DNA from: Sphingomonadaceae bacterium
GTDB lineage: Bacteria > Pseudomonadota > Alphaproteobacteria > Sphingomonadales > Sphingomonadaceae
NCBI GenBank assembly: GCA_947477745.1
Contig: CANJUF010000010.1
Span: 1-64,000 of the forward strand
DNA: 64,000 nt
Direction of reading: 5' to 3'
The translations under genes and the position numbers were made by a program. Below, piece by piece: positions 14,936 through 60,406 of this stretch. Under the pieces are notes generated by a model, which was given only the letters and a program-made list of their open reading frames with translations, was not told where the DNA came from and searched no databases. How positions within the stretch are numbered: the first letter of the stretch is position 1; each line of letters begins with the position of its first letter.

Positions 14936-16126
14936 ATGGCAACCCAGGCTGAGGAGCGCACCGCGAGCGATCTCGACACGTTCCGGCTGGAGGTGCGCGA
15001 GTGGCTTGCCGCGAACTGCCCGGTTTCGATCCGCAACCAGCCGCGCGGCATGGACACCTCGTTCTGGGGCGGTCGTAACCCGGTCTATCCCAGCGATGAC
15101 CACAAGCTTTGGTTCGAACGCATGGCGCAGCGCGCCTGGACAGTGCCGACCTGGCCCGCGCAATACGGCGGCGGCGGTCTCGATCCCGCGCAGGGGCGCG
15201 TGCTGAAGCAGGAAATGGAGCGCATCGGCGCGCCCGATCCGCTGTCTAGCCTTGGCATCATGATGCTTGGCCCGGCGCTGCTCAAATTTGGCACCGAGGA
15301 GCAAAAGCTCGAGCATATCCCGCTGATCGCGCAAGGCAAGATCCGCTGGGCGCAGGGTTACTCGGAGCCGGGCGCGGGTTCCGACCTCGCTAGCCTGACC
15401 ACGCGCGGCGAGGACAAGGGCGATCACTTCCTCGTCAACGGGCAGAAGATCTGGACCACTTACGGTCACAAGGCCGACATGATCTTCACCTTGGTGCGCA
15501 CCGAGCCCGATGCGCCCAAGCACCTTGGCATCAGCTTCCTCTTGATCGACATGGACCAGCCCGGCGTCAACGCCAGCCCGATCCGCATGATCAGCGGCAA
15601 CGAGCATTTCGCCCAGACCTTCTTCGATGACGCCGTGGTGCCGAAGAAGAACCTTGTCGGCGAGCAAGGCAGGGGCTGGGACGTTGCCAAGTACCTGCTG
15701 ACATTTGAGCGCTCGTCGATGGGGCAGAGCCTCGGCGGCGGCATGGGCAAGTCGGTTGCGGATTTGGCGCTTGAGGCGCTTGGCCATTACGGTCTTGCCC
15801 GCGAGCCCGGCCTTCGGCACGAGGTTGCCGAGACGATGATGGAAACCTGGGCGATGCAGATCGCTGGCGAACGCATGTACGATGCGGGCAAGGCGGGAAC
15901 CCTTTCGCCGTTCTCCCCTAACGTGATGAAGCTGCTCGGCACCGAGCTGGCGGCCCGGCGTTCGCGGCTGGCGATGTCGCTTGGCGGCTTCGACGCGCTG
16001 GATCGCGACGGTCGTGATGCCTACCAGTGGCTGCAGGACCCTCCCAACTGCGTTGCGGGCGGATCGAACGAGGTCCAGCTTAACGTGCTCTCGAAGCGCG
16101 CCCTCGAACTTCCGGAGCACAAGTGA
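14936..16126 (+). CDS. Acyl-CoA dehydrogenase (probable large partner of a heteromeric pair)
   Basis: The 396-residue protein has the ACAD fold with the FAD/substrate segment RWAQGYSEPGAGSDLASL, the middle beta domain, and a C-terminus ending in CVAGGSNEVQLNVLSKRA. I use the ATG at 14936, one base after the previous stop; the longer track ORF is an artefact. The stop overlaps the next acyl-CoA dehydrogenase start as TGATG. Adjacent, dissimilar ACAD genes of this kind encode alpha2-beta2 enzymes acting on bulky CoA esters such as steroid side chains in Actinobacteria. That function is an inference here. Confidence 0.92.
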   Translation: MATQAEERTASDLDTFRLEVREWLAANCPVSIRNQPRGMDTSFWGGRNPVYPSDDHKLWFERMAQRAWTVPTWPAQYGGGGLDPAQGRVLKQEMERIGAPDPLSSLGIMMLGPALLKFGTEEQKLEHIPLIAQGKIRWAQGYSEPGAGSDLASLTTRGEDKGDHFLVNGQKIWTTYGHKADMIFTLVRTEPDAPKHLGISFLLIDMDQPGVNASPIRMISGNEHFAQTFFDDAVVPKKNLVGEQGRGWDVAKYLLTFERSSMGQSLGGGMGKSVADLALEALGHYGLAREPGLRHEVAETMMETWAMQIAGERMYDAGKAGTLSPFSPNVMKLLGTELAARRSRLAMSLGGFDALDRDGRDAYQWLQDPPNCVAGGSNEVQLNVLSKRALELPEHK

Positions 16127-17235
16127 TGGCGCTGGTTCTTTCGCAAGACGAGACGATGCTCGTCGATTCCGCGCGCGGCTTGCTGGAGCGCGATGCGCCG
16201 CTGACCGCATTCCGCGCCCTGCGCAACAGCGGCGAACCGCTGGCGTGGGATCGCTCGCTTTACGGCAAGCTGGCCGAGAACGGCCTGGTTGCACCCAATG
16301 TCGCCGAGTCTGACGGCGGAATGGGCCTGGGTGCGTCTGCGGCGGGCCTTATCCTCGAACAGGCGGGGCATGTGCTTGCCGCCGCACCGCTGCTCAGCGC
16401 GGCGCTTTCCGCGCGGCTGATTGCTGGCGCGGCCAGTGAAAGCGAGCGCGCCGATCTGCTTGGTCCGATCGTATCGGGCGAGCGGGTGATCGCGCCCGCG
16501 CTCGACGAAGCCGCGCGCCACGATCCGGCGCAGCTGGAAACCAAAGGGGAGAAAGTCGGCGATGGTTGGGCGCTGACCGGCGCAAAGACCGCCGTGATCG
16601 ACGGCTTCGGGGCCGATGGCTTTGTCGTTTCGGCAATGGCGGACGGCGCGCCTGCGCTGTTCCTCGTCGAGAAAGGCGCAAGCGGGCTTAGCGCGGAGCG
16701 GTTCGCTGCAGTCGATTCGCGCAATTACGCCAAGCTCACGCTGTCCGGAACTCCCGCGACCCGGCTGGGCCAGGGCGATGCCGGCGCGGCAATTGCATCG
16801 GGGCTGGACCTTGGCCGCGCGCTGCTCGCCGCCGAGCTTCTCGGCATGGCTGACGAGGCGTTCGCGCGCACCGTGTCCTACCTCAAGGAACGCAGGCAGT
16901 TCGATCGGGTGATCGGCTCGTTCCAGGCGCTGCAGCACCGCGCGGCGCGGATGTACGCCCAGCTCGACATTGCGCGCGGCGTGGTGCTCAAGGCGCTCCG
17001 TGCCATCGACGAGGGCAGCGAGGATGCGACTTGGCTCGCCAGCCTCGCCAAGGGCACCATGACCCGCCTTGCGCGCGACGTGATGATGGAGGCGATGCAG
17101 ATGCACGGCGGCATCGGCATGACCGACGATTTCGACGTCGGCCTGTTCGTCAAGCGCGCGCAGTCGGCCGGCGAGCTGCTCGGCGACGATCATTTCCACA
17201 CCGAGCGGCTGGCCGCGGGGAAGTGGGGGCTGTGA
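16126..17235 (+). CDS. Acyl-CoA dehydrogenase (probable second subunit)
   Basis: This 369-residue ACAD is coupled to the previous one by a TGATG overlap; the track's GTG three bases earlier is less likely. It has the FAD-binding RRQFDRVIGSFQALQHR and the C-terminal MQMHGGIGMTDDFDV. Where many partners read GGIGFTWE, it has MTDD, so the position often occupied by a catalytic glutamate is changed; whether this subunit holds the base is unclear. It is the last gene of the 8923-17235 run and is followed by a CT-rich repeat and hairpins. Confidence 0.9.
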   Translation: MALVLSQDETMLVDSARGLLERDAPLTAFRALRNSGEPLAWDRSLYGKLAENGLVAPNVAESDGGMGLGASAAGLILEQAGHVLAAAPLLSAALSARLIAGAASESERADLLGPIVSGERVIAPALDEAARHDPAQLETKGEKVGDGWALTGAKTAVIDGFGADGFVVSAMADGAPALFLVEKGASGLSAERFAAVDSRNYAKLTLSGTPATRLGQGDAGAAIASGLDLGRALLAAELLGMADEAFARTVSYLKERRQFDRVIGSFQALQHRAARMYAQLDIARGVVLKALRAIDEGSEDATWLASLAKGTMTRLARDVMMEAMQMHGGIGMTDDFDVGLFVKRAQSAGELLGDDHFHTERLAAGKWGL

Positions 17236-22893: not shown

Positions 22894-22943
22894 GTTATGT
22901 CCTCTCCTGTCCCTTGTGGACCTTTGGAGGGGAGACTAGCCGA

Positions 22944-23540
22944 ATGATACAGGCGCGCAATGGGCGATGGCTGGTGTGGTCAATGGCGATTGGCCTTTCG
23001 CTGGCGCAGGGGAGCACGGCAATGGCAAAGGAAGATCTCGCGCAGCGGATCGAGCGGCTCGAGGCGCGTCTCGCCGATGCCGAGGCGCGGCTTGGCGTGC
23101 AGCAGGTGATCACCACTTACGGCCTTGCCGCCGACACGAACGACATTCCTGCGATGATGTCGCTGTGGACCGATGACTGCGTGATCGAGATCGACGGCAA
23201 CGTCATCGCGCAGGGGCGCGAGCAGTCGCGCGGGATCATCGAATCGGAAGTTCACCAGTCGATCCAGCCCTATTCCGCGCATGTCATGGGGCCGTTCAGG
23301 ATCGACGTGATCGATGCCGATCACGCAGTCGCGACCGGTTACCAGACGGTCTATGTCCGCGAGGGCAAGCGGGCGGAAGGGCAGTCGCAGGTCTGGCGGC
23401 AATCGTTCGGGCGGTGGGAACTGCGGCGCAGCGGCGGGCGCTGGGAAATCGCGCGGCGCCAGTCGCGCGCGGTATCGCATCCCGGCGTCAAGGCGATTGT
23501 CGAGCCGACCCTGCGCAAGCGCGAAGATGGCGCCAATTGA
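22944..23540 (+). CDS. Exported SnoaL-like (NTF2-fold) protein
   Basis: The 198-residue protein carries a signal peptide (about 1-28, WLVWSMAIGLSLAQGSTAMA, cleaved after AMA). A short coiled-coil follows (LAQRIERLEARLADAEARL) and then a SnoaL-like cone domain from about residue 50. SnoaL proteins include dehydratases, cyclases and isomerases, including steroid dehydratases in sphingomonads, but periplasmic forms are unusual. I use the ATG at 22944 with GGAGGGGAG upstream; the track start adds ten residues with no ribosome site. It is followed after 110 bases by the thiolase-like gene. Confidence 0.8.
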   Translation: MIQARNGRWLVWSMAIGLSLAQGSTAMAKEDLAQRIERLEARLADAEARLGVQQVITTYGLAADTNDIPAMMSLWTDDCVIEIDGNVIAQGREQSRGIIESEVHQSIQPYSAHVMGPFRIDVIDADHAVATGYQTVYVREGKRAEGQSQVWRQSFGRWELRRSGGRWEIARRQSRAVSHPGVKAIVEPTLRKREDGAN

Positions 23541-23650: not shown

Positions 23651-24835
23651 ATGGGATTTCCGCAACGCAAGGCGGCTATCGTCGGCGTCTACAATACGAA
23701 ACAGGCCCGGATGATAGAGGGCAGCTCGTGGACGCTCGCGCTGGAAGCGATTCAAGGCGCGCTCGACGATGCGGGTCTCAAGCACAGCGATATCGATGGC
23801 CTGTCCTCGATGATGTACGATGCCAGCCTCACCGCGCAGCAGATGTGGGTGGAGCAGCTTGGCGGCAGGCCGATGACCTATACCTCGCACGGTATCGCCG
23901 GTGCGCTGGTGACCAAGGCGGCGGCGGCGATCGCGGCGGGCCTGACCAACGTGGTGTGCATCTATTTCGGCAATGCCGGGATGCGCGCGGGCCCCTCGAA
24001 GCAGCGCGCCGCGGCCGAAGCCGCGCCGGTGGTGCGCAAGGCGCCGCGCGTGCCCGACTGGGATTTCAACATTCACGGCGCTTATATGTCGGCCTGGTAT
24101 GCGCTGTGGACGCGCCGCTACATGGACCAGTTCAACGCGCCCTATGAGAACCTTGCCGAATATCCGGTGATCGCGCGCTATCACGCTACGCTCAACCCGG
24201 CCTCGATCATGGGCGAGCGCGGCGAGATTACCGTGCAGGACGTGATCGATTCGCCGATGATCAGTTCGCCCTTGCACCGGCTCGATTGCTCGCTCGACAA
24301 CGATGGCGGCTATGCGATCCTCGTCGCCTCGGCCGAAGTGGCGAAGAATTGCCGCAAGGAGCCGATCTGGGTGCTGGGCGGCGGCGAAGGCATCTATACC
24401 GATTTCTACATGTCCTTCACCAATGACTGGATCAACGACAACGGCCAGTCGGTGCGCAAGGCGAGCGAGATGGCCTTCGCCGGTGCCGGCGTGACCCGCG
24501 ACGACATCGACGTCGCCGCGATGTACGATTGCTTCCCGGTGACGATGGCCCGCAACATCGAGGAAATGGGCTTCTGCAGTGTGGGCGAAGGCCACGAATA
24601 CATCAAGGAAGGCCACCTCAAGCTGGGCGGCAAGCTGCCGACCAACACCGATGGCGGCCTGCTGTCGCACAGCCACTGCGGCAATCCGAGCGGGATGCAT
24701 GTGGTCGAAGTGGTCAAGCAGCTGCGCGGCGAATGCGACGCGCGGCAGGTCAAGGATGCGAAGATCGGCGCGGTCCTGTCGCAGGGCTATGCAGTCCACG
24801 GCGTCGCGGGTGTCGCCATTCTCGGCAAGGATTGA
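23651..24835 (+). CDS. Thiolase-like protein lacking the nucleophilic cysteine (possible Ltp2-type aldolase)
   Basis: The 394-residue protein has the thiolase fold (AAIVGVYNTKQAR at the start, LDCSLDNDGGYAILVAS in the middle), but the N-terminal cysteine motif normally CASG reads HGIAGA around residue 80. The usual GHPxGxTG reads SHCGNPSG. It therefore cannot run standard thiolysis. SCP-x-like homologues such as Ltp2 are retro-aldolases in steroid side-chain degradation and need a DUF35 partner; such a gene follows 12 bases later. I infer a comparable aldol-cleavage complex. The catalytic residues would need structural confirmation. Confidence 0.85.
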   Translation: MGFPQRKAAIVGVYNTKQARMIEGSSWTLALEAIQGALDDAGLKHSDIDGLSSMMYDASLTAQQMWVEQLGGRPMTYTSHGIAGALVTKAAAAIAAGLTNVVCIYFGNAGMRAGPSKQRAAAEAAPVVRKAPRVPDWDFNIHGAYMSAWYALWTRRYMDQFNAPYENLAEYPVIARYHATLNPASIMGERGEITVQDVIDSPMISSPLHRLDCSLDNDGGYAILVASAEVAKNCRKEPIWVLGGGEGIYTDFYMSFTNDWINDNGQSVRKASEMAFAGAGVTRDDIDVAAMYDCFPVTMARNIEEMGFCSVGEGHEYIKEGHLKLGGKLPTNTDGGLLSHSHCGNPSGMHVVEVVKQLRGECDARQVKDAKIGAVLSQGYAVHGVAGVAILGKD

Positions 24836-24847
24836 GGATCAGCAACG

Positions 24848-25273
24848 ATGACAGAGCAACCCTACAACAAGCCCTTGCCGCAGCGCCTGCCCGAGAACGA
24901 GGAGTTCTGGGAGGGCCTCGAGGCCGGCGAGTTCCGCGTGCCCAAGTGCAACAATTGCGGGTACTGGCACTGGATTCCCTATCCTGCCTGCCGCAACTGC
25001 CTCTCGACCGACCAGACCTGGACCGCGACCAGCGGCAAGGGCACGGTGTTTTCCTACACCGTGGTTCACCGCGGGCCAGGCGGCTTCCGTGACGACGTGC
25101 CCTATGTGCTCGCCATGGTCGAATTTCCCGAAGGCCCGCGCAACCCGATCGTGCTCGGCACCATGGTCGATGTCGATCCTGACGCGGTCCACACCGGCAT
25201 GCCGGTCAAGGTCGTCTATGAGGAAATTCCGGGCGAAGACGTGACCATCTGGCACTTCGCGCCGGACAATTGA
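24848..25273 (+). CDS. DUF35 OB-fold Zn-ribbon protein, partner of the thiolase-like protein
   Basis: The 141-residue protein has an N-terminal rubredoxin-like zinc ribbon with Cys34, Cys37 (KCNNCGYW), Cys48 and Cys51 (ACRNCLS). An OB-fold follows (GKGTVFSYTVVHRG). DUF35 proteins bind acyl-CoA and form complexes with thiolase-like enzymes, as in ChsH2-Ltp2. Being 12 bases downstream of the Cys-less thiolase makes a complex likely. A hairpin (25280-25299) just after it separates it from the convergent VOC genes. A second DUF35 at 34363 pairs with a canonical thiolase. Confidence 0.9.
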   Translation: MTEQPYNKPLPQRLPENEEFWEGLEAGEFRVPKCNNCGYWHWIPYPACRNCLSTDQTWTATSGKGTVFSYTVVHRGPGGFRDDVPYVLAMVEFPEGPRNPIVLGTMVDVDPDAVHTGMPVKVVYEEIPGEDVTIWHFAPDN

Positions 25274-32234: not shown

Positions 32235-33218
32235 TCACATGCCCTCGGCGTCGAGCATGGAGACCAGCACGCCGAGGTAATAATCGAGATTCTGCTGGAA
32301 ATAGGCGAGCTTGGGATCGGTGTTCTTGCCGGTCACCCACAGGTTGGTACCTTCGGCCATGGTGCACAGGATCTTGGCAATTTGCGCCATCTCGTGCCAG
32401 ATCAGGCCCCGGCTCGATCGGCCCGTGACCCGCTCCCACAAGGCGATGGCTTCCTCGCGCGTGAACATGCCCGGCGCCTTGAGCTGAGTCGCGGCGCGGT
32501 GGAACGGTCCCTCGAAAAAGATCATCAGGTAGCCCAGATCGCACAGCGGCTCGCCATTGAGCGCCATCTCCCAATCGAGCACCGCGCTAAGCTCGCTCTC
32601 GTGCCACATGAAGTTCGAAAGCTTCACATCGCCGTGAACCACGCTGGGCGGCCCGCTGACCGGGGCAGGGCGTGACAGCAGCCGGTCATAGGCGGCGACA
32701 AGCGACGGGCAATTGGCCCTGTCGGCAAAGCTGCGCCACATGCGCACATCGTCATCGGGGCTGACGGGATCGCCGAGCAGGGCAAGCGGCTCAAGCCGGG
32801 CGAAGCCAGCAAGCGTTTCGATCCACGTCTCGCACAGCCGCCGGCGGAACGGGTCGCTTGGCGCGGTGAACCACTCGGGCAACTGGGTGTCGTGGACTTC
32901 GGCGCCCGCGACGCATTCCATCACGAAGAACGGCGCGCCGATGACGCTATCGTCCTCGCAGATCGCGACGATGGCGGGCACCGGCGGTCCGCCGGGTACC
33001 TCGCCGAGCGCAGCGTAGAGCCGCGCCTGCGCCAGCACGTCATGGCCTTCGAGGATCGCACCGCCAGCGGGCGGCATCCGCAGGATCCAGTTGACGCCTT
33101 CGATCCGGTACGTCTCGTTCGAGAACCCGGTGGTCAGCGGCACGACTGCGCCGATTGCCTCGCCGCCGGGCATATAGCCCCGCAGCGCCTCGGCAATCGC
33201 CGTAGGATCGCGGCTCAC
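32235..33218 (-). CDS. APH/ChoK-like phosphotransferase
   Basis: The 327-residue protein has the aminoglycoside-phosphotransferase fold: the catalytic loop VVHGDVKLSNF and the metal-ligand motif VLDWEMALNGEPLCDLGY. Related domains in ACAD10/ACAD11 phosphorylate 4-hydroxyacyl-CoA before elimination. I start it at the GTG at 33218, which overlaps the thiolase stop as GTGA; the track's longer N-terminus is antisense-frame sequence. It has a partner of the same family at 41729. In this operon it accompanies thiolase, DUF35 and SDR genes. Confidence 0.85.
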   Translation of the reverse strand: MSRDPTAIAEALRGYMPGGEAIGAVVPLTTGFSNETYRIEGVNWILRMPPAGGAILEGHDVLAQARLYAALGEVPGGPPVPAIVAICEDDSVIGAPFFVMECVAGAEVHDTQLPEWFTAPSDPFRRRLCETWIETLAGFARLEPLALLGDPVSPDDDVRMWRSFADRANCPSLVAAYDRLLSRPAPVSGPPSVVHGDVKLSNFMWHESELSAVLDWEMALNGEPLCDLGYLMIFFEGPFHRAATQLKAPGMFTREEAIALWERVTGRSSRGLIWHEMAQIAKILCTMAEGTNLWVTGKNTDPKLAYFQQNLDYYLGVLVSMLDAEGM

Positions 33219-34351
33219 GCCTTCTGCAGGATATGAACCGCCGAGGAAGTGCCGAACCCCAGAACATGGGCAAGACCGATGCGCGCGCCTTCGACCTGCC
33301 GCTTGCCGGCCTCGCCGCGCAGGTGCTCGACGATCTCGACGATATTGGCGACACCGGTCGCGCCGATCGGGTGGCCCTTGGCGATCAGCCCGCCCGAAAC
33401 GTTGACCGGCAGCCTGCCGCCGAGCATCACTTCGCCGCCCTCGATCAGCCGCGCCGCCTCGCCTTCGGCGCACAGGCCCAGGTTCTCGTAATGAAGCATC
33501 TCGGCAGTGGCGAAACAGTCGTGCAGCTCGACGATGTCGAGGTCTTCAGGCCCCATGCCCGCCATCTCGTAGGCCTTGGCGACGGCCATGCGCGTCACCG
33601 AGTTGGGATCGAACAGTTCGGGGTTGTTGGCTTCCCACGGGTCGGAGGCGAGCCCCGATCCGGCGATGCGCACCGCGCGGCCCAGGCCCAGTTCCTTCGC
33701 CTTCTTCTCGGAGACGATCACCACGGCGGCTGCGCCATCGACATTGGCCGAACACATCAGCTTGGTCAGCGGATAGGCGATCAGGTCGCTGGCGAGGATT
33801 TCCTCGAGCGAAGCCTCGGTCTGGTACTTTGCCTTGGGATTGAGCGCGCCGTGCTTGCGATTCTTGACTGCGATCTTGGCGAACTGCTCCATCGTCGTGC
33901 CGTATTTCCCGGCATGGACCATGCCGCACTCGGCGAAGACTGCGGGCATCGAGCCGGAGCCGAAAATGCCCTCAGGCGTAAGTCCGCTGGAGGGTCCGCC
34001 GCCGAGCATGCCGCGCGGGTTCATCTCGGTGCCCACGGCGAGCGCGATGTCGTACATCCCGCTCTTGATCGCGATGAAGGCTTCGCGCACCGCCGTCGCG
34101 CCCGAGGCGCAGGCGTTCGACACATTGACGCAGGGGATCCCGGTCTGGCCGATCTCGCGCATGATCTGCTGGCTCATCGAAGCGCCGGCAGTAAAGCTCG
34201 ATCCGGTGTAGAACACCTCGACATCGTCGATGGTAAGGCCCGCATCGTCGAGCGCCATCAGCGCAGCCTCGCCGCCGAGCTGGGCAGGGGTCTTGTCGGG
34301 ATAGCGGCCGAAGGCGATCATGTCGGCGCCGATGATATAGGCTTCGCTCAT
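33215..34351 (-). CDS. Thiolase (SCP-x/lipid-transfer-protein type)
   Basis: The 378-residue enzyme keeps the nucleophile Cys81 in VSNACASGATAV and the active-site histidine in GHPIGATG, so it should carry out thiolytic cleavage or condensation of acyl-CoA. The C-terminal second cysteine motif of classical thiolases is replaced by HVLGFGTSSAV. It lies 11 bases after a DUF35 gene and overlaps the phosphotransferase start (GTGA). This thiolase/DUF35 pair contrasts with the Cys-less pair at 23651, so this region may have both a thiolase and an aldolase version of the same architecture. Confidence 0.91.
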   Translation of the reverse strand: MSEAYIIGADMIAFGRYPDKTPAQLGGEAALMALDDAGLTIDDVEVFYTGSSFTAGASMSQQIMREIGQTGIPCVNVSNACASGATAVREAFIAIKSGMYDIALAVGTEMNPRGMLGGGPSSGLTPEGIFGSGSMPAVFAECGMVHAGKYGTTMEQFAKIAVKNRKHGALNPKAKYQTEASLEEILASDLIAYPLTKLMCSANVDGAAAVVIVSEKKAKELGLGRAVRIAGSGLASDPWEANNPELFDPNSVTRMAVAKAYEMAGMGPEDLDIVELHDCFATAEMLHYENLGLCAEGEAARLIEGGEVMLGGRLPVNVSGGLIAKGHPIGATGVANIVEIVEHLRGEAGKRQVEGARIGLAHVLGFGTSSAVHILQKA

Positions 34352-34362
34352 TGGTTCAGCTC

Positions 34363-34773
34363 CTATGCGTCGACCGTTGCGGCCGTGAAGTGATAGGCGA
34401 CAAAATCGTTGCCTTCCTTGTCTTTAGCCCCGCCAGCATCGTTCATGACGAGGCGCACCGGCATTCCCGCGCGCAAGTCCTCGTGGGATACGCCATTCAG
34501 GTTGCCCTTGATCGAGATGCCGTCGTCAAGCCGCACGACCGCGGAGACGAAGGGTACCGGCACGCCCGGATAGCTCCTGTGGACGATCGACCAGGTGACG
34601 AGCTTGCCGCTGTCACCGGCGCGGAACTCCTCCATGGTGCCGCGCGCATGGCATTTGCGGCAAGCGATGGTGGGCACTTCGGCGGCGGTGCCGCAGGCCG
34701 TGCAGCGGAATGCGCGCACCCAGGCGTCGCCGTTTTCGGCAACCGCGATGTTCGTGCGTCCGGGTATCTGCAT
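34363..34773 (-). CDS. DUF35 OB-fold Zn-ribbon protein, thiolase partner
   Basis: The 136-residue protein has a zinc ribbon with Cys24, Cys27 (FRCTACG), Cys38 and Cys41 (ACRKCHA), then an OB-fold (KLVTWSIVHRSYPG). It should form a complex with the thiolase encoded 11 bases downstream. I use the ATG at 34773, preceded by GGAGAGGAACCCC, rather than the track's start five codons upstream. An SDR gene precedes it on the same strand. Confidence 0.88.
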   Translation of the reverse strand: MQIPGRTNIAVAENGDAWVRAFRCTACGTAAEVPTIACRKCHARGTMEEFRAGDSGKLVTWSIVHRSYPGVPVPFVSAVVRLDDGISIKGNLNGVSHEDLRAGMPVRLVMNDAGGAKDKEGNDFVAYHFTAATVDA

Positions 34774-46250: not shown

Positions 46251-47654
46251 TTATCGATCGAGATTGGGGCCGAAGGGCAGGTCGTTGATCGGCGAGTCGA
46301 GGCCTGTGTTGACGGCGTGTTGTGCCTCGGTCAGCAATTGCTTGTCCAGTCCGGCGAGGTATCCGTCGATCAGGCGGTGATTGTTGCTGATCGTGCCTTC
46401 GTGCTCGCGCGATAGCCGCATGTGCGTGAACTTGCCCGCGTGGAGGCCAAGCTGCTGGATCGGCAGGTTCGAATAGTCCTGCCGCGGCACCTCCGGGAAA
46501 TCCTGCGAATTGTAAGGCAGGACCGTGGGATGGCTGGGCGTGTCGAACTCTTCGCCGTCGGGCCGAAAGCCGAGCGACCAGATCTCATAGAAGCAGGTTT
46601 CCGCCGTCAGCGGCCGGATCCTGTAGCTCGACATTGCGCCGAAGGTGGGCAGCAGGAAGAAGTGCGGGAAGATGAATTCGACCTGCGTGGTCGGCACTTC
46701 GGCATTGATCTTGTTGATGTCGAACATCGCCGAGACGCCGCGCTCGCGCGCGTCCTCGACGATCTCGTCCGCCGCCTTGGTGAAGAACGTGGTGATCGCG
46801 CCCATCAGGTCGTCGGGGGCGTCCATGTCGCGCAGCTTCTCGAGCACTTCGGCCTCGGTGGGATGGACCATGCCCGCCATGCCGGTGCTCAGCCGCTGCA
46901 TGAAGTCGATGAAGCGGTTGACGACTTCGGTGCCGGACCGGGTCTCGTCAGGTATCCGGCCATCGCCATCAGGGCCGAGATTGCTGCGCGGGCTCAGCCA
47001 GTGCAACTGCGGATGAGTCTGCATCGTGTGGTAGCCTTCCATGAAGGCTTCCATCGCGAGCTTCCAGTTGGTCGGCAGGACGGTGCCGTACCACCAGTCC
47101 ATCCTCAGCTTGTCGGCGTTGCGCGCATCCATCTTGGCCCTGACCGGACCGAGCCCGTCGACGAGCGGCAGCGCGTCATCGTCGAAGTTGATGAAGGCGC
47201 AGCCCGCCCAGGTTTCGCAGCGCACCGAGGGAAGGTTGATCTCGTCCTCGGCGAGCACGTTTTCGTCGAAGATCGGCTTGCCGAAAACGAAGGTGCATTC
47301 GCCCTGCGCATTGAAGCGCCAGCCGTGGAACGGGCAGATGAAGCCGCCTTCGCCGAGATGGCCCGGACCGTTGATCAGCCGCACGCCGCGGTGGCGGCAG
47401 GCGTTGTGATAGGCCCTGATCCCGGTGGGCGTGTTGATGACGATCACCGATTTGTCGAGGATCGTGTATTCGGTAAAATCACCGACTTCGGGAATTTCCT
47501 CAAGGCGGCAGGCCATCTGCCAGACCTTGGGCCAGAAATGCTCCTTCTCCATCTCGAAGAAGTGCTCGTCGTAATAACGCTCGGCGGGGATGCGTTCGGG
47601 ATCGGTGATCTGGAACGGCACCTTGGCCAGGGCTTCGTCGATCTGGGTTGTCAT
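46251..47654 (-). CDS. Rieske aromatic-ring-hydroxylating oxygenase, alpha subunit
   Basis: The 467-residue protein has a Rieske centre with Cys86-His88 (CRHRG) and Cys107-His110 (CPFHGW), and a mononuclear iron motif in EAFMEGYHTMQTHPQ. The length fits class IA/IIA-type alpha subunits and related phenylpropionate dioxygenase-like proteins. No beta subunit, ferredoxin or reductase is adjacent, so partners are encoded elsewhere. The ATG at 47654 has GGAGAACCTGAA upstream; the track's long N-terminus is spurious. Overall it is distinct from the two KshA-like oxygenases at 58239 and 59396. Confidence 0.92.
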   Translation of the reverse strand: MTTQIDEALAKVPFQITDPERIPAERYYDEHFFEMEKEHFWPKVWQMACRLEEIPEVGDFTEYTILDKSVIVINTPTGIRAYHNACRHRGVRLINGPGHLGEGGFICPFHGWRFNAQGECTFVFGKPIFDENVLAEDEINLPSVRCETWAGCAFINFDDDALPLVDGLGPVRAKMDARNADKLRMDWWYGTVLPTNWKLAMEAFMEGYHTMQTHPQLHWLSPRSNLGPDGDGRIPDETRSGTEVVNRFIDFMQRLSTGMAGMVHPTEAEVLEKLRDMDAPDDLMGAITTFFTKAADEIVEDARERGVSAMFDINKINAEVPTTQVEFIFPHFFLLPTFGAMSSYRIRPLTAETCFYEIWSLGFRPDGEEFDTPSHPTVLPYNSQDFPEVPRQDYSNLPIQQLGLHAGKFTHMRLSREHEGTISNNHRLIDGYLAGLDKQLLTEAQHAVNTGLDSPINDLPFGPNLDR

Positions 47655-58238: not shown

Positions 58239-59237
58239 ATGACCACGATGACCACTCTCCCGCGCGGATACGACGAGCTGCCGATTCCGTTCGGCTGGTT
58301 TGCCGTGGCGCTTTCGAACGAGATCCAGAACGGCGACATCCGCACAATGCGCTATTTCGGCACCGAATTCGTGCTGTGGCGCGGCGGTGACGGCGGCCTG
58401 CGTGCGGTCGATCCGTTCTGTCCGCACCTCGGCGCGCATCTTGGTGTCAACAGCAATGTGGTCGGCAACGACCTGCGCTGTCCCTATCACCACTGGCAGT
58501 TCAACGGCGATGGCGGCGTCACCAAGATCCCCTACACCGATGTGATCTCGCCGAGCATGAAGCGGAGCTGCCTGCCAACCTGGCCGGTCGAGGAAGTCGA
58601 AGGCGTCGTTTACGTCTGGTATCACCCCGCCAAGGCGGCTCCGAAGTGGGAAGTCGCACACATCCCCGATTGCCCCGAAGGCGATTGGGTGCTGGCGATG
58701 ACGCGCGAATGGATCGTCAACATCCACTGCCGCGAAATTCCCGAGAACGGCCAGGATCATGCCCACTTCGGTGCGGTCCACGGCGTGCCCTTCGCGCCCA
58801 AGGGTGAGATGAAGGTCGATGGCTGGATCCGCCACAACAAGGTCGAGGCCGAGATGAAGACCCCGCGCGGGCTGATGGTCGGCCGGATCGAGACCACCGC
58901 GACCGGGCCTTGCCAGTCGGTGGTCGAATACAAGGACGTGACCCACGTCGTGCAGTGCCAGCAGGTCAGCCCGATCGATGCCTCGACCACCCATGTGCGC
59001 TGGCAGATGTACTACGCTCCGGGTCTTTCCGATGGCCAGCTTCGCGTTACCCAGGCGCGCATCCGCGACCTTCTCAGCCAAGTCGACCAGGACATTCCGA
59101 TCTGGAACAACAAGCAGAACATGGAAAAGCCGATGCTGGTGCAGGGCGACGGGCCAATCCTCGCCTACCGCCGCAACTACGACCGCTACTTCGATTTCAC
59201 CCCCGATCCGGTGCCCGAAGCGGTCGCGGCGGAATAA
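58239..59237 (+). CDS. Rieske oxygenase, KshA/Neverland-like, copy 1
   Basis: The 332-residue protein has a Rieske site with Cys61-His63 (CPHLGAHLG) and Cys81-His84 (CPYHHWQF). Its mononuclear iron site lies in ENGQDHAHFGAVHG, with Asp173, His176 and His181. The pattern resembles the 3-ketosteroid 9-alpha-hydroxylase KshA and cholesterol-7-desaturase groups, so a polycyclic substrate is possible but unproven. It shares most of its sequence with the next gene. No reductase is encoded beside it. The strong GAGAGAGACAAACG ribosome site precedes the ATG. Confidence 0.9.
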   Translation: MTTMTTLPRGYDELPIPFGWFAVALSNEIQNGDIRTMRYFGTEFVLWRGGDGGLRAVDPFCPHLGAHLGVNSNVVGNDLRCPYHHWQFNGDGGVTKIPYTDVISPSMKRSCLPTWPVEEVEGVVYVWYHPAKAAPKWEVAHIPDCPEGDWVLAMTREWIVNIHCREIPENGQDHAHFGAVHGVPFAPKGEMKVDGWIRHNKVEAEMKTPRGLMVGRIETTATGPCQSVVEYKDVTHVVQCQQVSPIDASTTHVRWQMYYAPGLSDGQLRVTQARIRDLLSQVDQDIPIWNNKQNMEKPMLVQGDGPILAYRRNYDRYFDFTPDPVPEAVAAE

Positions 59238-59395: not shown

Positions 59396-60406
59396 ATGAA
59401 CCCGATAGACGTTACCACCAACACGCTTGATCGCGGCTACAGCCAGATGCCGATCCCGTTCGGCTGGTTCGCCGTGGCGCTATCGCACGAAATTTCAAAC
59501 GGCCAGATCTTGACGATGAAATACTTCGGCACCGAGTTTATGGTCTGGCGCGGCGGCGATGGCCAGCTGCGCGCCGTCGATCCGTTCTGCCCGCATCTGG
59601 GCGCGCACCTGGGCGTCAACAGCGACGTGATCGGCAACGACCTGCGGTGTCCCTATCACTTCTGGCAATTCAACGGTGAGGGCGGCGTCACCAAGATTCC
59701 CTACACCGACGTGATCGCGCCGAGCATGAAACGCTGGTGTGTTCCGACCTGGCCGATCGAGGAAGTGAACGGTGTGGTCTATGCCTGGTACCACCCCGCC
59801 AAGGCTGCGCCCAAGTGGGAGGTCGCCCGCATCCCCGAATGTCCGGAATGCGAATGGGTGCTGGCCCGCGCCAAGGAATGGATCGTCAACATACATTGCC
59901 GCAAGATCCCGGAAAACGGGCAGGATTATGCCCACTTCGGCGCGGTCCACGGTGTGCCTGGCTCTCCCGCGGCAGAATTCAAGGTCGATTCCTGGACGCG
60001 CCGCAATACGGTCAATGCGGAAATGAATACGCCAAGGGGCTTGATGCAGGCTCAAATCGACGTGACCGCGACCGGACCCGGCCAGTCGATCGTCGAATAT
60101 AAGGATGTGACCCACGTCGTCCATGCGCAGCAGGTTACCCCGATCGATGCGCAGACGACGCATGTGCGCTGGCAGCTCTACCACATTCCAAACCTGACCG
60201 AAGGCAAGCTGCGCGTGACGCAGGCGCGCATGCGCGACCTGATCAAGCAGATTGAGCAGGACATGCCGATCTGGAACAACAAGTTGAACCTCGAGAAGCC
60301 GTTGCTGGTGCAGGGGGACGGGCCGTTCCTCGCCTACCGCAAGAATTACGAGAAGTATTTCGATTACGGCGACGAGCCTGAGCCCAAGGCGGCGGAAGCG
60401 GCCTGA
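59396..60406 (+). CDS. Rieske oxygenase, KshA/Neverland-like, copy 2
   Basis: This 336-residue paralogue of the preceding Rieske protein has the same Rieske motifs (CPHLGAHLG, CPYHFWQF) and iron site (ENGQDYAHFGAVHG). The two differ mostly at the ends and in scattered positions, so they are an old tandem duplication with likely shared substrate class. GAGGTGAGCCG precedes the ATG. A separate FNR-type box and promoter-like spacing suggest different regulation from copy 1. It ends nine bases before the convergent crotonase stop. Confidence 0.9.
   Translation: MNPIDVTTNTLDRGYSQMPIPFGWFAVALSHEISNGQILTMKYFGTEFMVWRGGDGQLRAVDPFCPHLGAHLGVNSDVIGNDLRCPYHFWQFNGEGGVTKIPYTDVIAPSMKRWCVPTWPIEEVNGVVYAWYHPAKAAPKWEVARIPECPECEWVLARAKEWIVNIHCRKIPENGQDYAHFGAVHGVPGSPAAEFKVDSWTRRNTVNAEMNTPRGLMQAQIDVTATGPGQSIVEYKDVTHVVHAQQVTPIDAQTTHVRWQLYHIPNLTEGKLRVTQARMRDLIKQIEQDMPIWNNKLNLEKPLLVQGDGPFLAYRKNYEKYFDYGDEPEPKAAEAA

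Follow-up and report, generated by a model that had tools for sequence, protein, structure and literature searches.

The window analysed here, a 64,000-nucleotide stretch of contig C10 from the genome of a wastewater-type Novosphingobium (Sphingomonadaceae), carries two adjacent rightwards-transcribed genes that are the subject of this report. A thiolase-fold gene without the nucleophile cysteine (23651..24835, forward strand; 394 aa), coding for a candidate retro-aldolase, is followed by a DUF35 partner gene (24848..25273, forward strand; 141 aa), and 12 bases separate the stop codon of the first from the ATG of the second, the same distance as given in the initial annotation of this DNA. Genes in the loci compared here were called with a home-made codon-usage caller, and the predicted starts may be wrong. 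The sole Pfam domain of the 394-aa protein is thiolase C-terminal-like PF22691 (4.3e-43), and no NCBIfam model scores above its curated cut-off for the candidate aldolase or its paralogues. The DUF35 protein has both domains of the DUF35/ChsH2 C-terminal family, zf-ChsH2 (PF12172, 1.7e-9) and OB_ChsH2_C (PF01796, 3.6e-22), together with the four cysteines of a predicted zinc ribbon, C34-x2-C37 and C48-x2-C51 (24947..25000, forward strand). In one orthologous DUF35 protein (L002, 11197-11622) the fourth of these is replaced by phenylalanine (CRNF).

Searches against solved chains match the 394-aa protein to 4U4E (2e-45), TcLtp2 6OK1 (2.7e-44) and CtSal 9MYR (2.4e-37), and the DUF35 protein best to the CtShy DUF35 chain 9MYR_B (1e-22), with the ChsH2 DUF35 chain 6OK1_B at 4.3e-13. 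The reference sequences used for CtSal, Ltp2 and the other PDB chains are the segments aligned in the HMMER output rather than full chains. AlphaFold models of the candidate aldolase alone (pLDDT 31.8) and of the two proteins joined into one chain, with glycine in place of the TGA stop (pLDDT 34.6), are of low confidence because the alignments, at a depth of eight rows each, are too shallow.

Active-site motifs and loss of the nucleophile

Three motifs distinguish the 394-aa protein from a thiolase. At the site of the thiolase CxSG motif is HGIAGA (residues 80-85; 23888..23905, forward strand), and residues 60-100 are free of cysteine in any register, so that the loss of the nucleophile reported in the initial annotation is upheld; that annotation placed glycine 'or nearby' at the nucleophile position, and the exact residue varies with the alignment among His80, Gly81 and Ile82 because the loop preceding the helix falls short of its thiolase counterpart by two residues or more. 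The GHPxGxTG motif was also correctly described as changed, and reads SHCGNPSG (residues 341-348; 24671..24694, forward strand), though a catalytic-type histidine is kept, His342, which aligns with the GHP histidine of thiolases, with Ltp2 Tyr344 and with Sal Gln352. The third motif, Y292-D-C294-F (24524..24535, forward strand), was absent from the initial annotation and says more about function than any other feature; it aligns with Tyr302 and Cys304 of CtSal (YDCY) and with HDCF of SCP2 thiolases. Compared with an SCP2 thiolase the cysteine is thus gone, YDCF stands for HDxF and SHC for GHP, and only His342 and Cys294 are kept; in alignment, the protein combines the Tyr-Cys pair of Sal with the thiolase histidine. 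Within the clade of the window protein the motif residues do not vary, and Cys343 is asparagine in a paralogue subclade.

The tyrosine and the missing cysteine go together across the family. Among 76 homologues collected from the same genome, plasmids, other genomes and the PDB, the nucleophile cysteine is lost in all 53 with tyrosine in the [H/Y]D motif and kept in all 14 with histidine; since these rows are related rather than independent, the pattern is a family rule and not 76 separate events. Eight homologues have a glutamine version (QDT[D/E] with GEP), all with the cysteine, and one has neither. The eight form a third thiolase-like class, with the cysteine kept, QDT[D/E] for HDxF and GEP for GHP, which recurs in the Sphingomonadaceae (including L089-L092 and L094-L096) and is represented in the window's own genome by a gene on contig C17 (L014, 7439-8584) that adjoins a DUF35 gene.

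This 3-Mb genome contains 12 thiolase-like genes, each of which lies next to one of its 12 DUF35 genes (the window and loci L009-L018). The nucleophile cysteine is missing in 10 of the 12 pairs, and the cysteine-less pair in the window is accordingly not unusual; as candidate acyl-CoA aldolases, the ten are an unusually high number for one genome. A second thiolase-DUF35 pair in the window (33215..34773, reverse strand) has intact NACASG, HDCF and GHPIG motifs, by which it is a true SCP2-type thiolase, and serves as an internal control.

Clade, distribution and genomic context

A maximum-likelihood tree built from 43 proteins unites the window protein with its orthologues and paralogues of 58-60% identity in a single clade (support 100/100), whose stem is 1.07 changes per column long. 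This clade lies outside Sal, Ltp2, IpfD, 4U4E and the true thiolases, and its position among these groups is not fixed by the tree. Across about 1,300 genomes, searched at the levels of genus, family, class and phylum with E-value limits of 1e-70 to 1e-90, the clade was found in eight only, all of them Sphingomonadaceae. The window type is present in six of the eight, and the block is syntenic wherever contigs permit checking. Both genes of the pair are under strong purifying selection, with dN/dS relative to the window copy of 0.04-0.12 for the aldolase gene and 0.04-0.22 for the DUF35 gene. The pair and its motifs are not chance, because orthologues that are 84-97% identical keep all three at these low dN/dS values, and the DUF35 protein has its strong PF01796 match.

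The window copy lies in a catabolic region with genes for acyl-CoA ligases, acyl-CoA dehydrogenases, enoyl-CoA hydratases, a P450 and Rieske oxygenases, and with two KshA-like genes. Two adjacent acyl-CoA dehydrogenase-type genes (14936..17235, forward strand; the first was scanned for domains) are a possible source of enoyl-CoA. A MaoC gene was sought in the window and none was found. One of two adjacent Rieske oxygenase genes with similar N-terminal sequences (58239-59237 and 59396-60406), that at 58239-59237, matches KshA_C (3-ketosteroid 9alpha-hydroxylase), and the region could act on a steroid-like substrate. Immediately upstream of the pair is a SnoaL-like gene (22941..23540, forward strand), syntenic in relatives, whose product has a signal-peptide-like N-terminus; it is probably exported, and is therefore not thought to be part of the enzyme. 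A role as a cyclase partner was rejected on the same grounds, the signal-peptide-like start being present in both the window and L003.

Related pairs have more informative surroundings. In two related genomes (L045 and L046) a homologous pair (58% identity) directly follows a gene for a two-domain, 286-aa MaoC/MFE-2-type hydratase (8386-9246 in L045) and is followed by an RraA-like gene, with aldehyde dehydrogenase (4942-6381 in L045), glyoxalase-like and EthD-type genes in the same cluster; the hydratase and the nearby aldehyde dehydrogenase fit a sequence of hydration, retro-aldol cleavage and aldehyde oxidation. The window's own genome has this hydratase (51%) and aldehyde dehydrogenase (63%) together on contig C8, without the aldolase. 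The C8 locus (L047, 7485-13176), with hydratase, RraA-like, SnoaL-like, aldehyde dehydrogenase and glyoxalase-like genes, corresponds to the L045/L046 cluster minus the aldolase-DUF35 pair. The closer paralogue in the same genome is on contig C1, beside a flavin monooxygenase gene, and more distant plasmid-borne relatives often adjoin MaoC genes.

Predicted function and alternatives

The pair probably acts as an acyl-CoA retro-aldolase that has the SCP2-thiolase fold, is stabilised by DUF35 and uses Tyr292 and Cys294. Tyr292 would act as the base, deprotonating the beta-hydroxyl group of a 3-hydroxyacyl-CoA, the bond between C-alpha and C-beta would then break, and Cys294, assisted by the retained His342, would be the acid that protonates the enolate, yielding an aldehyde or ketone and acetyl- or propionyl-CoA, with DUF35 as a structural partner; we infer complex formation, the retro-aldol chemistry and the role of His342. 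This reading is favored because Tyr292 and Cys294 align with CtSal residues whose mutation abolishes or nearly abolishes activity, because the nucleophile is gone and its loss follows the tyrosine without exception among the homologues, because the DUF35 pairing is constant and its best solved match is CtShy, and because of the MaoC hydratase and aldehyde dehydrogenase genes near the L045/L046 pairs and the purifying selection on both genes. Counted against it are the position of the clade outside Sal and Ltp2 on a long stem, the replacement of Sal Gln347, Gln352 and Arg216, the lack of a MaoC gene in the window, and the occurrence of YDCF in TbSLP, whose reported activity is a weak decarboxylation. 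The initial annotation's proposal of a 3-hydroxyacyl-CoA retro-aldolase with DUF35 is thus the best-supported one and right as to the kind of enzyme, but imprecise in detail, as the active-site pair is that of Sal rather than Ltp2 and the protein belongs to the clade of neither.

We consider it unlikely that the pair resembles IpfD in acting on a beta-hydroxyl supplied by Rieske ring dihydroxylation and removing the acyl-CoA side chain of an aromatic ring diol. Sphingomonads do possess such a side-chain-cutting pair in IpfD/IpfE (PMC10004696), with IpfD likewise cysteine-less by sequence, and the window includes a ring-hydroxylating oxygenase alpha subunit gene (46251-47654), but the Rieske genes lie more than 20 kb from the pair and are not co-oriented with it, IpfD falls outside the clade and differs in the second catalytic residue, and the related clusters have a hydratase and an aldehyde dehydrogenase instead. 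It is improbable that the protein is a thiolase or Claisen condensing enzyme in which His342 acts together with a substitute cysteine, either Cys294 or Cys343: His342 and Cys294 are indeed kept from the SCP2-thiolase machinery, with Cys343 adjacent, but the nucleophile is gone, HD has become Tyr-D, Cys343 is not conserved in the paralogue subclade, and none of the 53 homologues with the motif tyrosine keeps the nucleophile. We give as little credence to another lyase, an acyl-CoA decarboxylase or a non-catalytic scaffold. The one activity reported for TbSLP, which has the same YDCF motif, is a weak decarboxylation of malonyl-CoA, but CtSal, with the same Tyr-Cys pair, lacks that activity (PMC12329534), and the invariance of the motif residues across the clade argues against a scaffold.

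A more specific form of the retro-aldolase reading can be put forward only tentatively, and is doubtful as it stands: that thiolase-fold retro-aldolases have in this clade a third type of active site, with a tyrosine base and a cysteine acid as in Sal, the thiolase histidine activating the cysteine, and the shortened nucleophile loop opening the pocket for a non-steroid acyl-CoA. If the pair is a retro-aldolase, the clade would widen the small number of acyl-CoA aldolases so far characterised, enzymes of value for carbon-carbon bond formation, to a substrate outside the present range, and it could reveal how very few changes convert an SCP2 thiolase to an aldolase. Proteins of this type are named acetyl-CoA acetyltransferases or lipid-transfer proteins in databases, and the strict link between the tyrosine and the lost cysteine offers an easy criterion by which many could be reassigned as candidate aldolases.

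Comparison with known systems

The Sal-Shy system is similar in having a thiolase fold (by homology for the window protein) without the nucleophile cysteine, a Tyr-x-Cys pair and a DUF35 partner. In CtSal, the bile-acid side-chain aldolase of Comamonas testosteroni (9MYR), Tyr302 and Cys304 of the YDCY motif are catalytic, with Y302F nearly abolishing aldolase activity and C304A/S/H abolishing it, and glycine occupies the old nucleophile position (PMC12329534); the catalytic pair corresponds in alignment to Tyr292 and Cys294, and the glycine to Gly81 in one of the three possible registers. There are differences, however, in that Gln347 and Gln352, proposed to tune the Sal cysteine, are Leu337 and His342 in the window protein, the CoA-binding Arg216 is Pro202, and the two proteins are in separate clades. 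In Shy the DUF35 domain is fused to MaoC and is dispensable for hydration (PMC11321319), whereas the window DUF35 is a free protein, and its zinc ribbon has four cysteines rather than Cys3His1.

Ltp2-ChsH2(DUF35), the steroid C3 side-chain aldolase of Thermomonospora curvata (6OK1), similarly combines a cysteine-less thiolase fold with a DUF35 partner; in the ChsH1-ChsH2-Ltp2 complex DUF35 appears unimportant for either activity and links the hydratase and the aldolase (PMC11321319). The Ltp2-like tyrosine placement put forward in the initial annotation is half right, as the base Tyr294 corresponds to Tyr292 but the acid Tyr344 corresponds to His342; the Ltp2 motif is YDHF, with histidine in place of Cys294, and the two are not grouped in the tree. 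Residue 344 and the tree together rule out the simple identification of the window protein as Ltp2.

IpfD-IpfE of the sphingomonad ibuprofen pathway (pIBU218) is also an adjacent pair of a cysteine-less thiolase-like protein, with tyrosine in the YD motif, and DUF35, but IpfD has YDAF, with no cysteine there, and a tyrosine at the Ltp2 Tyr344 position, and IpfE lacks the zinc cysteines. IpfD (L030, 13229-14827) has been described as an SCP-X thiolase, yet with its missing cysteine, YDAF motif and second tyrosine it looks like an aldolase. The SCP2-type thiolases and thiolase-DUF35 complexes 6HSJ, BbsAB (7PXP) and 6ESQ share the fold family and the GHP-type histidine with the window protein, as well as the HDxF cysteine (6HSJ and 6ESQ) and the DUF35 partner (BbsAB and 6ESQ), but keep the nucleophile cysteine and HD, both of which the window protein lacks. 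The best PDB match, the uncharacterised 'Thiolase' 4U4E, is cysteine-less and has the same tyrosine and histidine, but has YDSF rather than YDCF and belongs to a different clade.
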